Assembly: GCA_026419785.1 (NCBI GenBank)
Contig: JAODTK010005669.1
Coordinates: forward strand, 77,501-141,500
Length of the DNA: 64,000 bases
Origin: Sclerodactyla briareus
Lineage: Eukaryota > Echinodermata > Holothuroidea > Dendrochirotida > Sclerodactylidae
Direction: 5' to 3'
Part shown: piece after piece, positions 3,961 to 30,075 of the stretch
Layout of the letters: every line of letters starts with the position of its first letter
How positions within the stretch are numbered: position 1 is the stretch's first letter
Position numbers and translations under genes: made by a program
Notes under the pieces: model-generated
The model's input: only the letters and a program-made list of their open reading frames with translations
Told to the model about the DNA's origin: nothing
Database searches by the model: none

Positions 3961-4139
3961 TCATAAGCTACTGCATTTTTTTTTATAGTCCTTTCCATAT
4001 CGGTGGACAGACTTGTCATCTCTCAAAACAGGTATACTCGTAAAAACAATGTGATTCTTCATTCATACCGCATACTGTAGCGGCATTTATGGAGTCCCAG
4101 CGTAAGGATTAAGCCCGCAGAAGGTAGATTTTGCGTTTC

Positions 4140-4435
4140 AGTACTTCTATTCTGCATATTTATTTTTATTTGTATATGGTCTACTTTCGAGCAGAGGACG
4201 AACTATTCAAGGCCCACAAGCGTTAAGCTGCAGACCTGAATACTGCACCTCATTGTCAAGGATAAGGCAATGCCTCTGTGGCAGTACATTATCGTGAGGA
4301 TGGTAAGGATGGCAACTTGCACCCACCCCTAGTTTGCCCCTGCTCAGTCCCTTGTGCTAACCCGACCGGGATTCGAACCCGAGTCTCCTGTGTGGGAGGC
4401 CGATGCTCTACCACTGTGCCAACCACCCGGTTATT
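4140..4435 (-). repeat. tRNA-headed SINE (family 2), tRNA-Gly(CCC)-like head
   Basis: On the minus strand, 4432 down to 4357 reads as a near-complete tRNA-like sequence: an A box in TTGGCACAGTGGTAGAGCA, an anticodon-arm region CCTCCCACACAGGAG like tRNA-Gly(CCC), and a perfect B box GGTTCGAATCC. The body down to about 4140 carries AGGCATTGCCTTAT, GGTGCAGTATTCA and GGGCCTTGAATAG, all found again in the + oriented copy at 15085-15345. A T run (4434-4453) flanks the head. It is a SINE rather than a tRNA gene because the acceptor ends do not pair and the body is shared with another copy. Confidence 0.8.
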
Positions 4436-4453
4436 TTTTTTTTTTTTTTTTTT

Positions 4454-5861
4454 CATTATGAGAGGAGATAAAAGAAAACCCCCCACCATATCGTTTCAGC
4501 AGTTCACCTAATGAGACGTATCCACATTATTACGAAACGGTCAGGCTGATCGTGTCACAGAATGTTAGGACACCATTAATATAATAGGACTCCTGAGACT
4601 TGAGAGTGTTACCAACTGTTTTCCTGAATCCCGTGGATTTAGTGTGGTCTAAGATTCGTGACATTCATACCGTGGTATACGGTATAAAAGCTGTTATGGC
4701 AAATGATTGGAGTAGCCTATCACATTTTGATACGTCACAATATTCCAATTTAAGAGATATGGTAAAACTGGTAGGAAACACAGGTACTCAAACCTGCCTT
4801 CGATCAAAAGCATATACATTAGAGTTTGTTCTTTTTGGCACCCTACCGAAAGGTGCATTCCCTTTTTGTCATTTGGGGGAACAAATGAATGAAGCGCGCG
4901 CGGCATCTAATCGAAGAAGCCTGCGCTTTACGCGTACGGTAGGTTATATAACGTTTCAACGGCTTGGACATCTCTTCTAACACCGTATCACGCCACGATA
5001 CGATTGTTATTCAAGGCAGCGGCAGTCTATACATTAACACTGCGATAAAACTACCAACTGTAAATCAGGCATAGTAAGTGCGTGGATTTGTTTGACCTTT
5101 CTCGGTTAATAGATGGCTTCAAACCAATGACCTGTCAGTATCGAACTCAACGGGGGTAATCGGAACACTTTATTATTCATAGTCAGGTCAGTTAGAGAAA
5201 TTATCTATACAGTATATTATTATCATTATATTACACCGATGAATGATTATATATGCGCAAAATCAAGAAGTTGAGTTTTAATGCGACTTTAAAAAACACA
5301 AAACGAAATAAAATAAACACCAAAGGAGGGAAATATCGCGCAACTATGCGGAGGAAGATTATCCAGAGCTGTGTGGGGGTGCAAGGTAGCTGAAAGCCAT
5401 CTCACACTCGCTTCTCGGATGGTCGATTTATAAGGGTGGATTGGAGGAAGAAGACAGAAGTGCCCGGACGAGGAACATATATATACAATAAGGTCCTGGA
5501 GGTAGTTTTGGAGCCAGGCATGCAGGCACTTGAAAAGGTACGTGAGGATCCGACCGAAAGGTCATGCGCATCTTGCATGGAATGCAGTACTACAAGCAAT
5601 CGCACTAACCATGTATACTTGCTGTTTTGGCGCAGAACATTGTGAGGCAGAATGAACTCGAGGAGACTAAGATGCACGGAGAGGGTTGCGCTATTCTCCA
5701 GTATGCTCCAGTTAGCGACCCAATGCGATATGAACTCGCAGTAGGCGGAAGTATTAGCTAATCATTAATACTACTACTATTCTGTCAAAGTAATAATACC
5801 AGGCGGTAATTATGAAAATCAATCCATACTACCTACAGCTGCGTACCTCAGCTTTATCCCC
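4454..5861. other. Non-coding, nothing recognised
   Basis: The longest ORF (4600-4980, +, 126 codons) has no recognisable domain or splice context. No paired repeats were noted. Confidence 0.35.
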
Positions 5862-18817: not shown

Positions 18818-20869
18818 TACAGAGAGAATAATAATGGACCAAGGCGAAGGTGGGGAACCGAAAAAAACCTTGGGGATCCCCCCGTCTTCTGACGTTCACA
18901 CTTAGTGACGATTTCTCACCATTATTTACAACACGCTGGGTACGATGATTCAAAACAAGTCACCCATGTGGGATTTTTGACAGATATACCGTAATTTAGT
19001 GCTTGTACGCCAGACGCTCATGTGGTACGGTACCTTAATTGTGGGGAGCTTTGCTGTAATCTGCGATCACTACATCAGTTTATTGAGACTACATCGTTGA
19101 TACTTATAGCCAATTGAGTCTTACAGAAGTGATTCTTTAGAAAACCATATCGAACAGTCGTCTTGAGTTCAGTCGATCCAAATCAGTTAAAAGATGGTGG
19201 TGATTGATGCGTTTTCCGATACTTTACATGGAATGGAGGTCAGTGAGAATGGCCAGGAATTACAATGATCTGTTTTGGTTTCCCTATTTGAAAAGAGGTT
19301 ATTACAACAATGTTCCCGTTTCGGGGCAACTGATCGATAACCACTGTTGATCAATTTCTGTATTGTTTTCAGTCACCAATGTATTATAGATGGTACATTA
19401 CATGTGATGTGTGACAGCTGGCACGGTGGCCGAGAAGAGCAGGTTTGTTCGTCCTTGCATGTGCACCAACCGTCGACTCGTCAGTTAACGTAACTTGACG
19501 TACTGACATCTCTCATCTTCAGTACGAGTGTGCGACCATAGTACGATAGGGTGTGTACCATATGCAGCCCCGGTGTACGACCATAGTACGATAGGGTGTG
19601 TACCATATGCAGTCCCGGTGTACGATGAGATGATGAGGCAGTGGGTGAAACACATGGAAAAGGATAAATGAGGAAAGTGAACAGCATTGAGAAATCAGAA
19701 TTAGCCAAGACGGGCAAATAGAATTGGGAAATCTATGAGGAGAGAGAGGACTGAAGGGGAGGAGAAAGAATGGACAGGGGCGTAAATACACAATTTTCCA
19801 GGGAGTGTGAATATTGGGACCGACAAGATGTTCTGTCTGAGACCGACTTTTTCGATTGACTATTTTTCATTTCCCCAGGTTTTTCGGCGACCATGGTGAA
19901 GTTTACGACAAGGGGGATGGGGAGGGGTGGCCAATCTTTCCGTAGGGTGGCTTCCGTACAACGGTCCATTTGTTACAGTTTTCATGGCATTCTTCGTTCA
20001 CGAACATCCATCTTCGGGGGTCTATTCAAGGTTCCTTAAAAATCAGCTTTGGCCGCTCAGAGAACGACTCAAATCTTTGGATGAAAGCAAAGGATTTGAA
20101 GCGAAAAATACGTATACCAATGTGTGCATTTCCCCTTAAACTCAAGTCAAATCATGGAAGGTAAACGAATGATGATGGAAATGAAGCGGGGATGGATAGA
20201 GAGGGAACCTACTGAATGCATATAGTCAGGAGAACCATGGTAGAGGTTTTGACAATCAGATTCAACGTATGGAGTCAACACAGGGAGCGGATAGTAACCT
20301 CCCCTTGACGTGACACGTCAGACGGAAGAAAATGTAACGTTTGTGAACTGTATGTATAGTAACGCAGTTATGCAGTAACAAGTTATACGTACACTTAATT
20401 CTATGGCGCGAACAGAGGAGGTATATAGGCCAGTTCACTCTACAGGGCCCTAGCCGAATCAATTAGAAGTCGAATCAAATGGGCACCCGCTGGGATGAAA
20501 GATCAAATACATTTTATTCATACACGCTGAGGATTAACAAGTGGAGTGCTTGTAAAACAGAGGAGATGCTATCGAGCTTATTAAGTAAGAGAGAGGTACC
20601 ACGCGCTGCAGCCCATCGAATACTCTGAAGTATAAAGATGTAGTAAGGGGAGGGGTTGCGGGCGTGGATGGGTGGGGGGGTCGGGTTTGCAAGCGGTACC
20701 ATCTACTTTTGCGATAACTGGCGAACAGGACTCGATTGTTACGCGAGGATACCTGGGACCCTGGATCCTTGAGCGAAAGCCAATTCAACATGACGTGGCG
20801 TGGTGGCGTGACATGCCGTCGGGTTGTAATTGTGTGATATTCGTCACAGCAAAGTGAAGGATAAATGAA
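18818..20869. other. Non-coding apart from a small tandem repeat
   Basis: Apart from the 45-bp tandem repeat at 19528-19625, no motif or repeat partner was seen. ORFs of 60-90 codons are unsupported. Confidence 0.35.
19528..19625. repeat. Tandem repeat, 45-bp unit, about 2.2 copies
   Basis: The units 19528-19572 and 19573-19617 differ at two positions only. Each contains GACCATAGTACGATAGGG and GTACCATATGCAG. A third unit is started and lost at about 19625. Confidence 0.9.
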
Positions 20870-21190
20870 TTAGTCAGGTTTCGCTATGTTCAAAAATATT
20901 AGTTCGTTGGTAGTTTTGGGAAGATTTGCAGATATATACATTTTTTAAAGCTGTATAATTGTGTAAGCAATCAGAAAACTAATGTTTACCATTCGCTGGA
21001 CGCATATATGGCGGCCATCTTGGATTTTCAAAATGGCCGCTTCAGAATGGGGGCTTCTCAATATCTCGACACCTAGAGGAACCAGAGTCCTGATTATAAT
21101 GGCTAAATTCATGTAATTTCGTTGGAATTTTGGGGACATTTGTATATCTATACATTTTGGAAATTGTATAGTGACACAAATCGCAAGATT

Positions 21191-22527
21191 GTACAGGTTG
21201 TACTGGTTGACGGTATTGTGGTCGTAAAGAAGCTGACAAAGAAATCGGCCAGGACACGTAGTGACCGTCAAGGATCTGAGTGAATGTTTTAATGCCAGAC
21301 TGATGTCTTTGACGCGAAACTGTGATGATATCATTTTTGGTGTTTGATACTTACAAGGCTGACTCCCTGAAGGGTACCACAAGAGAGAAACGAAGACAAG
21401 GGACGGACCCGGTCCAATATCAGATCAGAGATGACCCCACATCAAACACATCCTGATGAGCCGTTTTCCCTTCCCATGACAAGAGGACTCTGGAGTACTA
21501 CAAAGACTCGTCCAAGTTGGTCATCACATCGACCTCAAAACATACCATGAGCAACAGGAGCTGTTCTTTGAAGACAACAACCATGAAGAGGCAGACACAC
21601 TGCTGATCCACCAGGCAGTGCTAGCTCACAGTGCAAACCACCTCACTCACTCACTCACTCACTTATGGAGCACATGCCTGGAATGCACCTAGCCGCACAG
21701 TCCACCCGCCCGGCGTCCTTCGGGCAAACAACCACGCCTGAGCCTGGCCCATCCCCCACTCCCCGAGGTACCATCGAAACTGCGCCAACCATGAGCTACG
21801 GGGCGTCCCGTCGGTCGGCCCAACCCACCGGATCTCGTTCACACAGGACACGGTGGCAGGTTCGTCCGCCAGGAAGCGCGCCATATGCCCAAAGAGCGCA
21901 GTTGGCGAACGCGAATCGGGCAGCTAACCTTCACCATCCCCACATCCATGTCGATGGCCTCCGGAGTGATCCAAGTGCAACCAGTACTGCAAACTCTAGG
22001 TTCGGAGAGAGCAATGGCTCTGCCAGCCTTCCATGCATTTTTCAGAGGCAGACACCACTGGGAGGTTCTCTCGTAAAGGCAAAGCAACCTGACTGCAAGT
22101 CTACCTAAGAGCGGACGAAGAAGTCGCAAAGGCATTGTAGATGTTCTCGGGTGCTACTGACGTCACTGATGACCTGCACTCTACATTGGCTACGACTCTG
22201 CTGCATACTCACCAAAGGGGATCCGGATTGCGAGCATCTCCGAGCTGCGATGGCATCTGTTTTGCAAGTATATGGCTGAAAGTGACACACTTGGGACCCA
22301 ATGGTCAGTCAAGCCCGTCACTAACTACTGAGGTGCTCCCAGCTCCCACAGCCATCATCGAGATGGTAAGATGCCAGTGCAAACTGTTCTACAGATCGAT
22401 GTTCTTGCAGGTTCAATAAACCTGTCGTGTACAGACCTCTGCCAGTGCTGCACTCAGTGAGGACTCTGGGAATGACATATTGATAGCCAGTAACAGTGAT
22501 GATGGTGAGAGTGATAATATTTTCTGA
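21191..22527 (+). pseudogene. Frameshifted gene of an uncharacterised repetitive family (EADT / PAFHAF / Cys-rich tail)
   Basis: Read through shifts in frame, the strand encodes a continuous protein-like theme. In order it shows DGIVVVKKLTKKSAR (about 21210), VVTVKDLSECFNARLMSLTR (21262), VFDTYKADSLKGTTREKRR (21340), DPVQYQIRDD (21405), HIKHILMSRF (21440), YYKDSSKLVITSTS (21497), then FFEDNNHEEADTLLIHQAVL (21565). After a TCAC repeat and a poorly readable stretch come TLGSERAMALPAFHAF (21995) and, shifted, EADTTGRFSRKGKAT (22048). Near the end are TEVLPAPTAIIEMVRCQCK, a Cys-rich stretch (CSTDRCSCR, LSCTDLCQCC, 22390-22455) and an acidic tail ending with TGA at 22525-22527. I recall the same pattern (HEEADT..., LPAFHAFTG.DT, Cys-rich end) from multicopy uncharacterised proteins in cnidarian, fish and other invertebrate genomes, but I know of no assigned function. 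The N-terminus is absent or lost. At least six frameshifts are needed. Confidence 0.6.
21640..21663. repeat. TCAC microsatellite
   Basis: A (TCAC)n tract of about six units interrupts the decayed gene described above, just after the HEEADT block. Confidence 0.85.
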
Positions 22528-22919
22528 AGATCATGATGATGGTCTGATAGTCCTTGCCCTTGAAGTTTAGTGATGAACAATAATCATCGTCGGAAGTGCC
22601 ATTTCTGGCTCAGTTCTTGACATCATCTACCATCATCTACATCTGTCATTAGGTTTAGCATATTGTACTTGTGCCATTGGATTCCTCACCCATGTTAATA
22701 TATCCATTAGAACTATGATTCTGGGTCGCCTAGATGCTGGAATATTGGGAAACCTTCATTTAGCAACGACGCTTGACCATTTGAAACTCCAAGAGGCCGT
22801 CATATATGGCGTTGGCAAATGGCACCTTGGTTCTGATTGATTACACTGTACAGTTTTCCAAAACGTATAGATCTGCAATCTCCCAAATATTCCAACAAAA
22901 TTCATATGAATTTGACTAA

Positions 22920-25900
22920 ATAGACCAAGTCGTTAGGTAATGTTGTATTAAGCCCGCGTCACAAGGTTTGTCGGAGTGTATCGAACACCACCTGAACTCA
23001 TTTGGGGTGACAGCATCGTTCAAACACATGAAAACCTAGTCAATTCGAGAACAGATTGCCGAAAAGCAACGCCCCGTCTTTGAATAGTACAGAATCGATA
23101 GGCTGTTTCGGAATGATCTGCTGGATAAACAACAAGGTATACGATATCGCCCGAATCAACACATGCGGCCGGCCAGTACTGACGAGGCCCGGAGTTCGGC
23201 AGTGTATGTCCACATCAGGGAGACTAGTCGCGACATACGAGAGAATGTTGTGGTATTTAATCGAGAGGAGCAGTGCATCGACGATGAATTAAGGAAGCCA
23301 TCTGTCGATGAAGGCCAGACCAGGGGAGCTACGTTTCAACCGGTTTTACAACTGGGAGAGGCAATTGATACGGACCACGAAGGAATTTTCAGTAAAATGT
23401 AGGCCTAATTCTCCTTAATGTACCCAAATGAAAAAGATATCGATCTAGACCTATCAGACATCGAGGTACGCAACGGTCTCATCAGGCAGTATGAGGATAC
23501 GTACAGACGTTATATGGCTCTACATTTTGTATGCAAATTGCAGCTCTCAAAATGTCGTTGATTGGCATTCCAAGTTCTCCCAAATGTATACTGTTGTCGT
23601 CTCCAGCCGGTGTTTCGTACTGGATTAACCGGCTAATTCACTTTACACACTATATGAACTTACATACATAGGTCACGTGGTATCTATGAATGATGAAGTC
23701 AATATCAGGTGTAAGTTCTGCTATGGTTCTGTATTCATACTCACGGCTGGGGGAACCCATATCAGCGGAGCATATCATCATTTGCGATTTACCGTTTCCA
23801 GACAACAACGAACGAGAATCCACTAAAGTTCGCTAACACAAATCCTTTGACTTGAATCCCTCATTACCAGCGCCCACTTGTTTCAGTTTAAACAGAAGTC
23901 ACGGTGTCACATCCACACGTACACCACGTACTTTTATATATATGGTTTACAGAAAACAAACACGAAGACATCACCATACCACGTGTCGGTGTTCGGCAAA
24001 GAATCCGAAGAAAGGTGATAAAGATGTCTGGTACATTTATCAGCCAGTCTGGCATCTTGTTTAATAATTCCAGCATATTTTTTTCCATAGACGACTTGGC
24101 AACCCTTCCCTTCACTATCACCATATATGACTAATGGATATTCTAACTTGCAGTTCAACAGGACAAACCTCAATAAACCAGTCCGTGTCGGAATTAGTAG
24201 CGCGTGACGCTGTTCTGAGAATGGGGAGATATACGCCGATATACTGCCACTCAAGTATAACAAATATTTACTACAGACTCGAGGGGTCTTTGTGTCTGCA
24301 GGTCAACGTGTCGATATATGACTCCTGAATTTTGATGAACGAATATCAATCGGAAAGGAAATAGACCCACAGACTGTAAACGGACGTGAAGGAGCTTCTG
24401 TATTATATATCATAACCATGCTGAATGTAGCATGCGACGGCAGTGGTGGTCGGCTTACGTGCGGATGGTTACACTCGTGAACTGCAACAAATCACAGTTA
24501 GTCTGCAAGTATGCAATTAGTTGGCTGTCCGTAGCCCTTGTCATTTCGTAGTCTATGAACGGATCTTCGGATCTTCAGCAATACGTCCGGACCGAGACAG
24601 CCGCTCTGGCTACGAATCTACGAATTCAACCACCAGACAGACAAAAAGTAAGTTAGGTAAGAGTTCATTTATCTCTTCACAGAAGACATACTTTCGTCAT
24701 TTCCCTGCTGGACTGGGTGATGACTCGTCAGACGAACTGTTTAGCGGGAAATGATCACGCTACATGCATTCTCGACTAGTTAACTGTGCTGGCCGCTGCG
24801 TCCAGTTCTCAGATCACACTAAACCCGGAAAAGTTTATTAGGCAATACTAAACCGGTAATCTAGTAAACTAGTCGAGTTAACTAGTCCAGCCGACGGGAC
24901 ATAGCAAGGGCGCAGCCACTGTTGAAAGTTGGGGGGGGGGGCAAGGGGGGCAAACGCATATTGATGGGGGATCCGAACCGTAGTAACCTAAAACCACTGT
25001 GTGGAAAAAAGACTCATATGTGGGAGCCTTCCCGACAAGTTGGGGGTCATGACCCGGATCCCCCTAGTGGCTGGCCCTTGGTACATAAACAAACTGGCCA
25101 TACCCTGTTAGCCTGCTAAAACGACGATTATGAGGGAGCCTTTCATGATAAAATAGGGGGGCTATCGTTTCTCCGTATACATGGTCGAATATACCGACAA
25201 ATCACCGATTGTTAAAGTGTCATCCTGCCCATATGAGTGAATGATCGCCTGAACGAGGTAAAACAAGTCAAACGCCTGTTTCCACAGGCTCATGTAGGCC
25301 TAACCGTTAGGCGCAATTCACAGGCGCCCGAAAAAATGTAAGTAAGGTTAAGTTATCATATATATCTTCCTGTGTTTGATTGGCCAAAGAGATATCTTCA
25401 TCAAGGCTAACTTGTGCCCGCTCCTCGAGTCTGTAATATACACGTGAGTCGTACTATGAAAGGCTGTGCTAGAATTAAGTATGGCTGCCACACTTAGGCA
25501 GTACTACCATGTTTATATCTACGAAGGATTTAGTCACATTAAACTATGGTTATAGTGGACGTGGCTCCTCCACTCACTACAATTTACGTATTGGACTCGA
25601 CTCGTATTGAAAACGAAAAACAAGACAGATGGTTTCGAAGGACGCTGGTTACAAACCGTGGTTGTCCTGTGGTCTATACATTTAGTATGAATAAGCCTGC
25701 AACATATTTCGTATACGAACAAACAGAAACATAGGGGGACAACACTTTAAAGGCACGAGCGGTCGATTGTTTTCAATAATAAACCAAACAATAAGCACAA
25801 TTTCAGAGCTAGTGACGCTCCGAATACTCATGTTTGTGCCGTTAACAGGAGAAAGTGGTTACTTCTTTTCTTGTTCTGATTTCAGTCTACACAAATAAGT

Positions 25901-27892: not shown

Positions 27893-30075
27893 ATGGCTGC
27901 CCATATTGACCGCCTGTTGCCAAAACTCGATGAAGTCTGCCGGTGTCCGATCTGCTCGAATCGACTTAGCGATCCTAAGCTACTGACTTGTCCCTCCTCG
28001 ATTCTGTCGGGACTGCCTGGAGGTGAAACTCCGAGAAAAGAGCGAGAGTGGTTTATTTACGTGCCCGATATGTCGGACCTCGATGGAGGTGCCTCGGAAG
28101 GCCTATGAGCATAGCACTGACCGACGCATGGAGAACATAATCAGATGCACCGAGGTAATAACGGCGCTGAAGGATACCCAGGCAGCTCGTGACTGTGGTG
28201 AATGTTCTACCGCGAAAAGCTGTAGCAGTTATTGCTTTAAATGTTCTTATTATATATGTGACGAGTGTCAACACTTCCACGTCACCAGGGCTTCTTTAAA
28301 GAGTCACCAAGATTCTGTTCTTTCTCTGAGGGAAACCAACGGGAACGAGCTAACGGTTGAGGACATAGAGCGAGTTCAAACACACACTGGTATAATCAGT
28401 CACCACAAGAATATGTTCCAACGTCTGGTCTGTGTCAGTTGTGATGAAGTGTTCATCTGTGAACTTTGTGCCACTCGGTATCACAGAGGACACCAAATTG
28501 AGGATGTCACATCCGTGGCGAAGCAGTCGTTCGACCAGCTTCAGAGCAAGACAAAACAGTTGGCCTCGACTAAGGGTCGAATGGAGGAAGTAGTGTCTAA
28601 GATAGATTTCATGCAGAGCGAGCAGGGCAAACATGAACTGTATCGCAGATTAGAGATGTCCCACCAAAGAAACGTATCACTGATAAAAGTAGGGAAGTGC
28701 CTAATTGAGTCAGAAGCAGAGCGTAGGTGCTTGGAGATAAGGAATCAATTTAAGGCCCAAAAATCCAAAATCGAGCATATGGTAGAGGCTATCAATGAAG
28801 AAATTAGGAAGGAATATCAAACCACGTTGAATAAAATAATTGAGTCTGAGAAGAGGGAGTTAGAGAGTGTAACCACAAGAAAGGAAAACCAGCTTAACAG
28901 AAGCCAGCAACAAACGGAGATTCGAATCAAAACTTCGAGCGTTTGGCAGAACTGATAGATGCGTTGAAGTTAGAAGAGGCGAGGTGTACAATTCAGCTGT
29001 TTATTGTAAAACAATGATCTCTTCAAAACAGTTGAAAATACATGTCTCTCTCTGAACGAATGCTGAACTTAGGCAATAACATGGAGATTATCGAATGTTC
29101 GAGCACGGTCTGTGCGGGTATACAGGATCTACTTTTCAGAATGAATAGGCAAATTGCATCACTGGAGTCGTTACTGTTGAGGCAAACTACCCTTATAATG
29201 TCCCGACCGTACAGCTTCTGGAATATGATTCGGAGGCCACAGCAGAACAGCCGAGCTCAGAAAGCGATTTAAGGTCCGGAACCCTTCGGCGACAACAGTG
29301 ACAGTATCATTGTGAGCTCCAAAGGGAGTTAGCGTGGTCTCCGCCCACGGTCCTTGCAAGTCGCATTTCTCCGTTATCGATATCAACGGAGAACTCATCA
29401 GGATACAACCTTTCGGAAGCACTATTATATCTCCGAATAGACTCTGCACTCCGATGAAGCAAAACGAGATGGCAATGGTGTGTCCTCCAAACGAGATCAG
29501 CGTGTGGAGTTTACACCGGGACAAAGAGGTCTCAGTCGTCGGATGACTGACGTACTAGACCTGAGTAGACACGGCGGAGTGAGGTGCGTCACTTCTGACC
29601 CTTGCACCAATTCCTTGTACGTTGGATTCTTCGACTGCCGGAAGATCTACGTCTTCGACGAGCGACTCCAATATCGCAAGTTCATCGCCCTCAGCCAGTG
29701 TCCTAAGTGGCCGTACGACCTGCACATCAGCCAAAAAAACAGCTCCTCGTCTGTGATTTGTCCGGCCGGGTAGCGTTTGCTGTCGACTTGACCGGGAACC
29801 TCTCTACAGGTTCGGCAAACCGAGTGGGGACTCTGAGGAGTGGCGTCCCTTGAGCGTATGCGCAGACGGGTGTGGGCTTGTTTACGTGCTGTGGCAGAAC
29901 GCACGCTGCACCAAGGCTATGGTTGTACAGTACGGTGGGAATGACGGCAGTATATCGCGACCAGACAAGTCACTAAGGACGCCTGTCGTATTACCACTCT
30001 GGAAACGACAACAGAGAGGAAACTGCTGCTTATAACTCAGAAATTGAGGAAGCTGCAAACATTCAGTTTGGTGAG
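27893..30075 (+). pseudogene. TRIM-type RING/B-box gene, intronless, with multiple frameshifts
   Basis: The ATG at 27893 starts MAAHIDRLLPKLDEV followed by a RING: CRCPICSNRLSDPKLLTC, then after a one-base shift near 27990-28005 FCRDCLEV and FTCPICRTS. The 310-codon frame (28023-28955) then gives a B-box1-like C..C-rich segment (CGECSTAKSC...CFKC...CDEC), B-box2 (VCVSCDEVFICELC...RGHQ) and a long coiled coil to about 28950. Further shifts follow. The C-terminal third encodes short beta-propeller/NHL-like repeats (VIDINGELIRI, VRCVTSDP, LYVGFFDCRKIYVFDE, LLVCDLSGRVAFAVD) and ends around RITTLETTTERKLLLI and QKLRKLQ near 30050. Such TRIM2/3/56-like single-exon genes are E3 ubiquitin ligases, often multicopy in invertebrates. 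About eight shifts in 2.2 kb, with few nonsense substitutions, fit either a young pseudogene or base-level assembly errors. Confidence 0.8.

Follow-up and report, generated by a model that had tools for sequence, protein, structure and literature searches.

Academ DNA transposons carry a nuclease that goes by the label XPG-like. Two lineages are placed together in this superfamily in the literature; AcademX elements have target-site duplications of 3 or 4 bp and AcademH elements duplications of 9 or 10 bp, these being tied to nuclease and helicase (PMC10045372); curated Academ elements of bivalves are on average 5,565 bp long (PMC10294476). Here we describe a related-looking locus in Sclerodactyla briareus, lying in a 64,000-nucleotide stretch of DNA that was analysed as a whole and is called the window below. 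We read positions 20871-22918 of the window, with a probability of roughly 0.7, as a dead copy, with an internal deletion, of a cut-and-paste DNA transposon whose family most resembles the AcademX lineage of the Academ superfamily. The Academ assignment is made because the length of the duplication, the size of the element and the nuclease-like motifs fit Academ/AcademX traits as published. The element is thus probably AcademX-like, filed by published traits rather than by comparison of transposase sequences.

Self-comparison of the window aligned positions 20903-21109 with 22899-22697 in inverted orientation (207 bp, 214 columns, 70.6% identity, E 7.6e-25), which bears out the imperfect inverted repeats of about 220 bp that a preliminary description of this DNA had reported at both ends. 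The best inverted-repeat score was 102 bits, compared with a maximum of 34 and a mean of 25 in 100 dinucleotide shuffles of the 2.4 kb spanning the element. A gap-free repeat search of the window listed no inverted pair, probably because its extension allows no gaps. Relatives of the element have the terminus TAGTCAGGTTCACTATG in common, with variants, and comparison of flanks places a 3-bp AAT directly outside each end (Table 1); the span proposed earlier, 20870-22919, was therefore correct to 1 bp.

Table 1. Features of the transposon copy in the window.
Feature	Position	Strand	Remarks
Left target-site duplication	20868..20870	.	AAT; flank comparison
Left terminal inverted repeat	20871..21182	+	a ~213-bp subrepeat plus the truncated beginning of another; begins TAGTCAGG
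Internal deletion junction	21176..21182	+	~2.96 kb missing relative to C2237 (L009 3725 to 6688)
Gene remnant, first part of nuclease-like domain	21204..21642	+	VDG, FDTY, HEEADT; frameshifted
Unrelated multicopy ~300-bp repeat in gene	about 21643..21941	+	genome and copy comparison
Gene remnant, remainder of nuclease-like domain, linker and Cys-rich segment	21942..22480	+	
Acidic C-terminal end of gene remnant	22481..22530 (boundaries approximate)	+	
Right terminal inverted repeat	22697..22918	-	about one subrepeat; ends TGACTA
Right target-site duplication	22919..22921	.	AAT; flank comparison

Between the arms, all of the protein blocks noted earlier could be read across frameshifts, namely HEEADT (21582-21599), LPAFHAF (22020-22040), EADTTGRF (22045-22068), a Cys-rich stretch and an acidic end. 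The gene is split by the ~300-bp repeat, which takes the place of 75-87 bp of coding sequence present in other copies; the SPDTD motif, as read in copy C2506, falls within this replaced segment. The repeat occurs at many further sites across the genome, and we also saw it at L020 (about 2061-2374) and L021 (about 1993-2302). It has a CACTCACT-rich start and a SINE-like size, and ARAGORN detected no tRNA in the insert.

We searched the same genome, comprising 319 Mb in 3,171 contigs, for further copies, and every count obtained in this way is a minimum. Relatives elsewhere were directly observed to have arms, gene and boundaries in common with the window element, along with a recurring 3-bp duplication and decayed coding sequence, mostly at 70-84% identity to the window copy. 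A fuller copy, C2237 (L009 3425-8475), is 5,051 bp long and has inverted repeats of ~480 bp, each made of two ~213-bp subrepeats, with 488 columns of the arms matched at 75%. Left and right arms are 71% identical in the window copy and similarly diverged in C3147 (69%), C385 (70%), C187 (69%) and C2837 (66%), and those of C2915 align to each other over only 57 columns. Stops were present in 17 of the 18 matches from a whole-genome protein search, the one without stops being 42 residues long and part of the window copy itself, and this search found no unbroken copy of the gene. Several copies have rearrangements of their own: C3147, which spans about 8.6 kb, contains a minisatellite-like array of ~167-170-bp units in two rows of 3.6 and 12 copies (L010 6392-9015); in C187 (L016 5234-8666) about 1.7 kb of the gene is duplicated in direct orientation, the two stretches being 79% alike; and in C474 (L052 135-6645) the left arm and the transposase part are repeated, as if copies were nested or part of one had been duplicated.

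The gene and the arms are linked in this genome, a conclusion supported by both directions of search and accompanied by the recurring duplication. Arm sequence lies beside the gene in 11 of the 13 contigs with a protein match. The remaining two are C3023 and C2670. C3023 is a more diverged copy, and the ~3.3 kb of it that was compared did not match the arms; this stretch extends about 1 kb past the gene, where it includes the ~300-bp repeat. In C2670, a distant relative, L046 likewise did not match the arms, and a search of 6.5 kb of L049 for a long inverted repeat gave none. Conversely, a left-arm search matched 27 contigs, and gene sequence was present in 15 of the 16 looked at, the exception being C3111; a right-arm search matched 10 contigs. 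Arms without the gene were seen at two places, C3111 (L019) and C2316:329380 (L030; 8.5 kb inspected). The preliminary description had proposed that the bracketed gene is carried by, or belongs to, a DNA transposon, and had named gene copies lacking arms, or arms occurring widely as a separate repeat, as observations that would count against it. The proposal holds, with arms in 11/13 gene contigs and the duplication in 5/8 two-ended copies, and the gene appears to be the element's own; among the contigs looked at, the contrary observations are confined to the few arm-only places and the two gene-only contigs.

A check suggested earlier was whether the same arms and a constant target duplication recur in other copies, and a 3-bp duplication does recur. 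Identical 3-bp flanks, at one fixed boundary, occur in five of eight copies with two placeable ends (window AAT/AAT, C2237 ACT/ACT, C3147 TAA/TAA, C385 TAT/TAT and C187 ACT/ACT, the last after allowing for an additional A at the left), and flanks differ in the other three (C2837 AGG/TGT, with an altered left end; C2915 ACA/ATA; C2339 AAT/TAG). The count covers copies with both ends placed and so leaves aside C2598, C2506, C2316, C1892, C1435, C2875, C2854 and C3111, with one or no placed end, as well as C474, in which arms and gene are present and the right terminus is not placeable. When the boundary was scanned in the first seven copies over offsets of -6 to +8 and lengths of 2 to 10, two peaks appeared, the terminal 3-mer (5/7) and a 2-mer two bases further in (6/7), with 0 or 1 match in every other cell. 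Random 3-mers matched at a rate of 1.7%, and when the right flanks were permuted 100,000 times, at least five matches arose in 58 cases, both figures being somewhat generous because the boundary was picked after inspection of the flanks. A mariner-like duplication of TA only was considered and rejected, since the palindromic terminal TA matches trivially (6/7) and the outer three bases match directly in five copies.

The coding region, stitched across frameshifts in C385, amounts to about 1,200 residues, and the frame pieced together from broken copies exceeds 1,200 aa. In other copies long stretches of the gene run in the same order as in the fuller copy. Its C-terminal third contains, in order, VDG, FDTY, HEEADT, SPDTD and GADNTG, followed by a cysteine cluster and acidic residues. 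The catalytic acids of XPG/FEN nucleases come in this order, and from the order of acidic motifs the C-terminal domain is apparently XPG/FEN-type nuclease-like. By elimination, and from conserved D/E-containing blocks, we infer that the upstream and central part is a DDE-type transposase. No piece of the protein had a Pfam match above cut-off, and the only matches below cut-off, for protein pieces or the distant relative, were PerB, NeuB, HCV_env and TCR; PDB searches with the protein returned nothing relevant, and the Pfam, PDB and Rfam searches together nothing useful. The cysteine cluster matched Pfam TCR (PF03638) at E values of 0.27 and 0.71 (12 and 10.7 bits, below the 23.5 cut-off) in two of three queries, both of which mix readings from several copies; the single-copy query from C2506 gave no such match. 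The resemblance to the Tesmin/TSO1-like CXC domain is one of cysteine pattern, covering positions 3-37 of 38 in those two queries. Pfam XPG_I matches a single place in the genome, outside this transposon family and probably a host gene. Scans of viral and prokaryotic contig collections, a weak test with two short peptide patterns per scan, yielded no confirmed relatives.

A distant relative of the protein, at 27% identity, lies on the minus strand of C2670 (L049 about 4072-4811), where the motifs DTDALVL and DTTDHIQGKGK can be read. DTDALVL and DTT..GKGK are thereby conserved in a second lineage of nuclease-like protein in the same genome, one beside which no arms were found.

Several other superfamilies were weighed and set aside. 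PIF/Harbinger elements make TWA target duplications, a pattern that only one of the five duplications here (AAT, ACT, TAA, TAT, ACT) fits. EnSpm/CACTA elements end in CACTR, and the termini here are TAGTCAGG and variants. Kolobok elements duplicate TTAA, and a 4-bp boundary match was found in none of seven copies.

The family agrees most closely with AcademX, which it resembles, by description rather than by sequence, in its 3-bp duplication, its inverted repeats, its size of about 5 kb and its nuclease-like motifs. The exact 3-bp duplication in five of eight two-ended copies lies within the 3 or 4 bp given for Academ/AcademX (PMC10045372), the terminal inverted repeats are present, and the acidic nuclease motifs occur in the expected order with no Pfam XPG_I or PDB match. 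In this last respect it differs from AcademX, as Pfam XPG_I misses the nuclease-like domain of the present element. Its likeness to XPG/FEN1 nucleases likewise lies in the order of acidic motifs, with no significant sequence match. AcademH belongs to the same superfamily as AcademX but differs from the present family, with reported duplications of 9-10 bp and a helicase (PMC10045372), whereas here the duplication is 3 bp and Pfam finds no helicase; a 9- or 10-bp match occurred in none of seven copies at offsets of -6 to +8. The idea in the preliminary description that this is a DNA transposon of an unrecognised type finds no support here; the traits agree with a superfamily already described, Academ with its AcademX lineage, of which the element is probably a member.

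How firmly this placement stands depends on what else could produce such a locus. The strongest competitor, which we regard as unlikely, is a cut-and-paste transposon outside Academ that makes a 3-bp duplication with its own transposase and gained its nuclease-like domain independently. None of the libraries searched puts a name to any portion of the protein, and the Academ link consists of duplication length, size and nuclease-like motifs, compared without sequences, both of which leave room for this reading; however, duplication length, inverted repeats and size agree with Academ/AcademX as described, and the TAGTCAGG termini and mostly non-TWA duplications are unlike those generally ascribed to CACTA or Harbinger. 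A more specific form of it, a superfamily outside Academ in which one polypeptide would combine transposase and XPG/FEN-like nuclease with a CXC-type DNA-binding cluster, with tandem ~213-bp binding units in the arms, seems to us slightly more doubtful.

It is highly improbable that the gene was instead captured, as a host gene or one from an unrelated repeat, by a non-autonomous element that depends on a transposase encoded elsewhere. Such a capture could accommodate the lack of an unbroken copy among those found, the arm-only places at C3111 and C2316:329380 and the 2/13 gene contigs without arms, yet it sits poorly with arms in 11/13 gene contigs and the gene in 15/16 left-arm contigs looked at, and the reading is long enough for a transposase to be included. 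A palindrome formed by chance or as a foldback, with no bearing on mobility, is a scarcely credible account of the arms: they are imperfect (71%) and have internal subrepeats, as such a palindrome might, but they score 102 bits against at most 34 in shuffles, and their shared ends with recurring 3-bp duplications contradict the idea because the boundaries recur.

On the AcademX-like reading, a full copy would be about 5 kb long, with long inverted repeats each of two ~213-bp subrepeats, and would encode one long protein in which a central DDE-type transposase is followed, towards the C-terminus, by an XPG/FEN-like nuclease domain, then by a cluster of cysteines resembling CXC and finally by an acidic tail. 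The transposase would bind the repeated subunits of the arms, cut at TAGTCAGG ends and insert with a 3-bp stagger; here the duplication is observed and the chemistry presumed. The nuclease-like domain may trim flaps, free ends, or intermediates of cleavage or repair. The missing middle of the window copy is what would be expected after incomplete gap repair, and the unrelated ~300-bp repeat would have been taken up after this internal loss.

As a single locus the window copy is an ordinary genomic relic, probably of an already known kind. The wider interest is that a repetitive protein family unnamed in Pfam is now tied to its mobile element, which offers a handle for naming similar proteins left blank by profile libraries and raises the question of why a flap-type nuclease should be joined to a transposase. 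Elsewhere in the window, a 322-aa open frame on the plus strand (27987-28955) matches the B-box zinc finger at 18.7 bits, below the cut-off of 24.1; by eye it has a RING-like start, and it resembles TRIM-type proteins.
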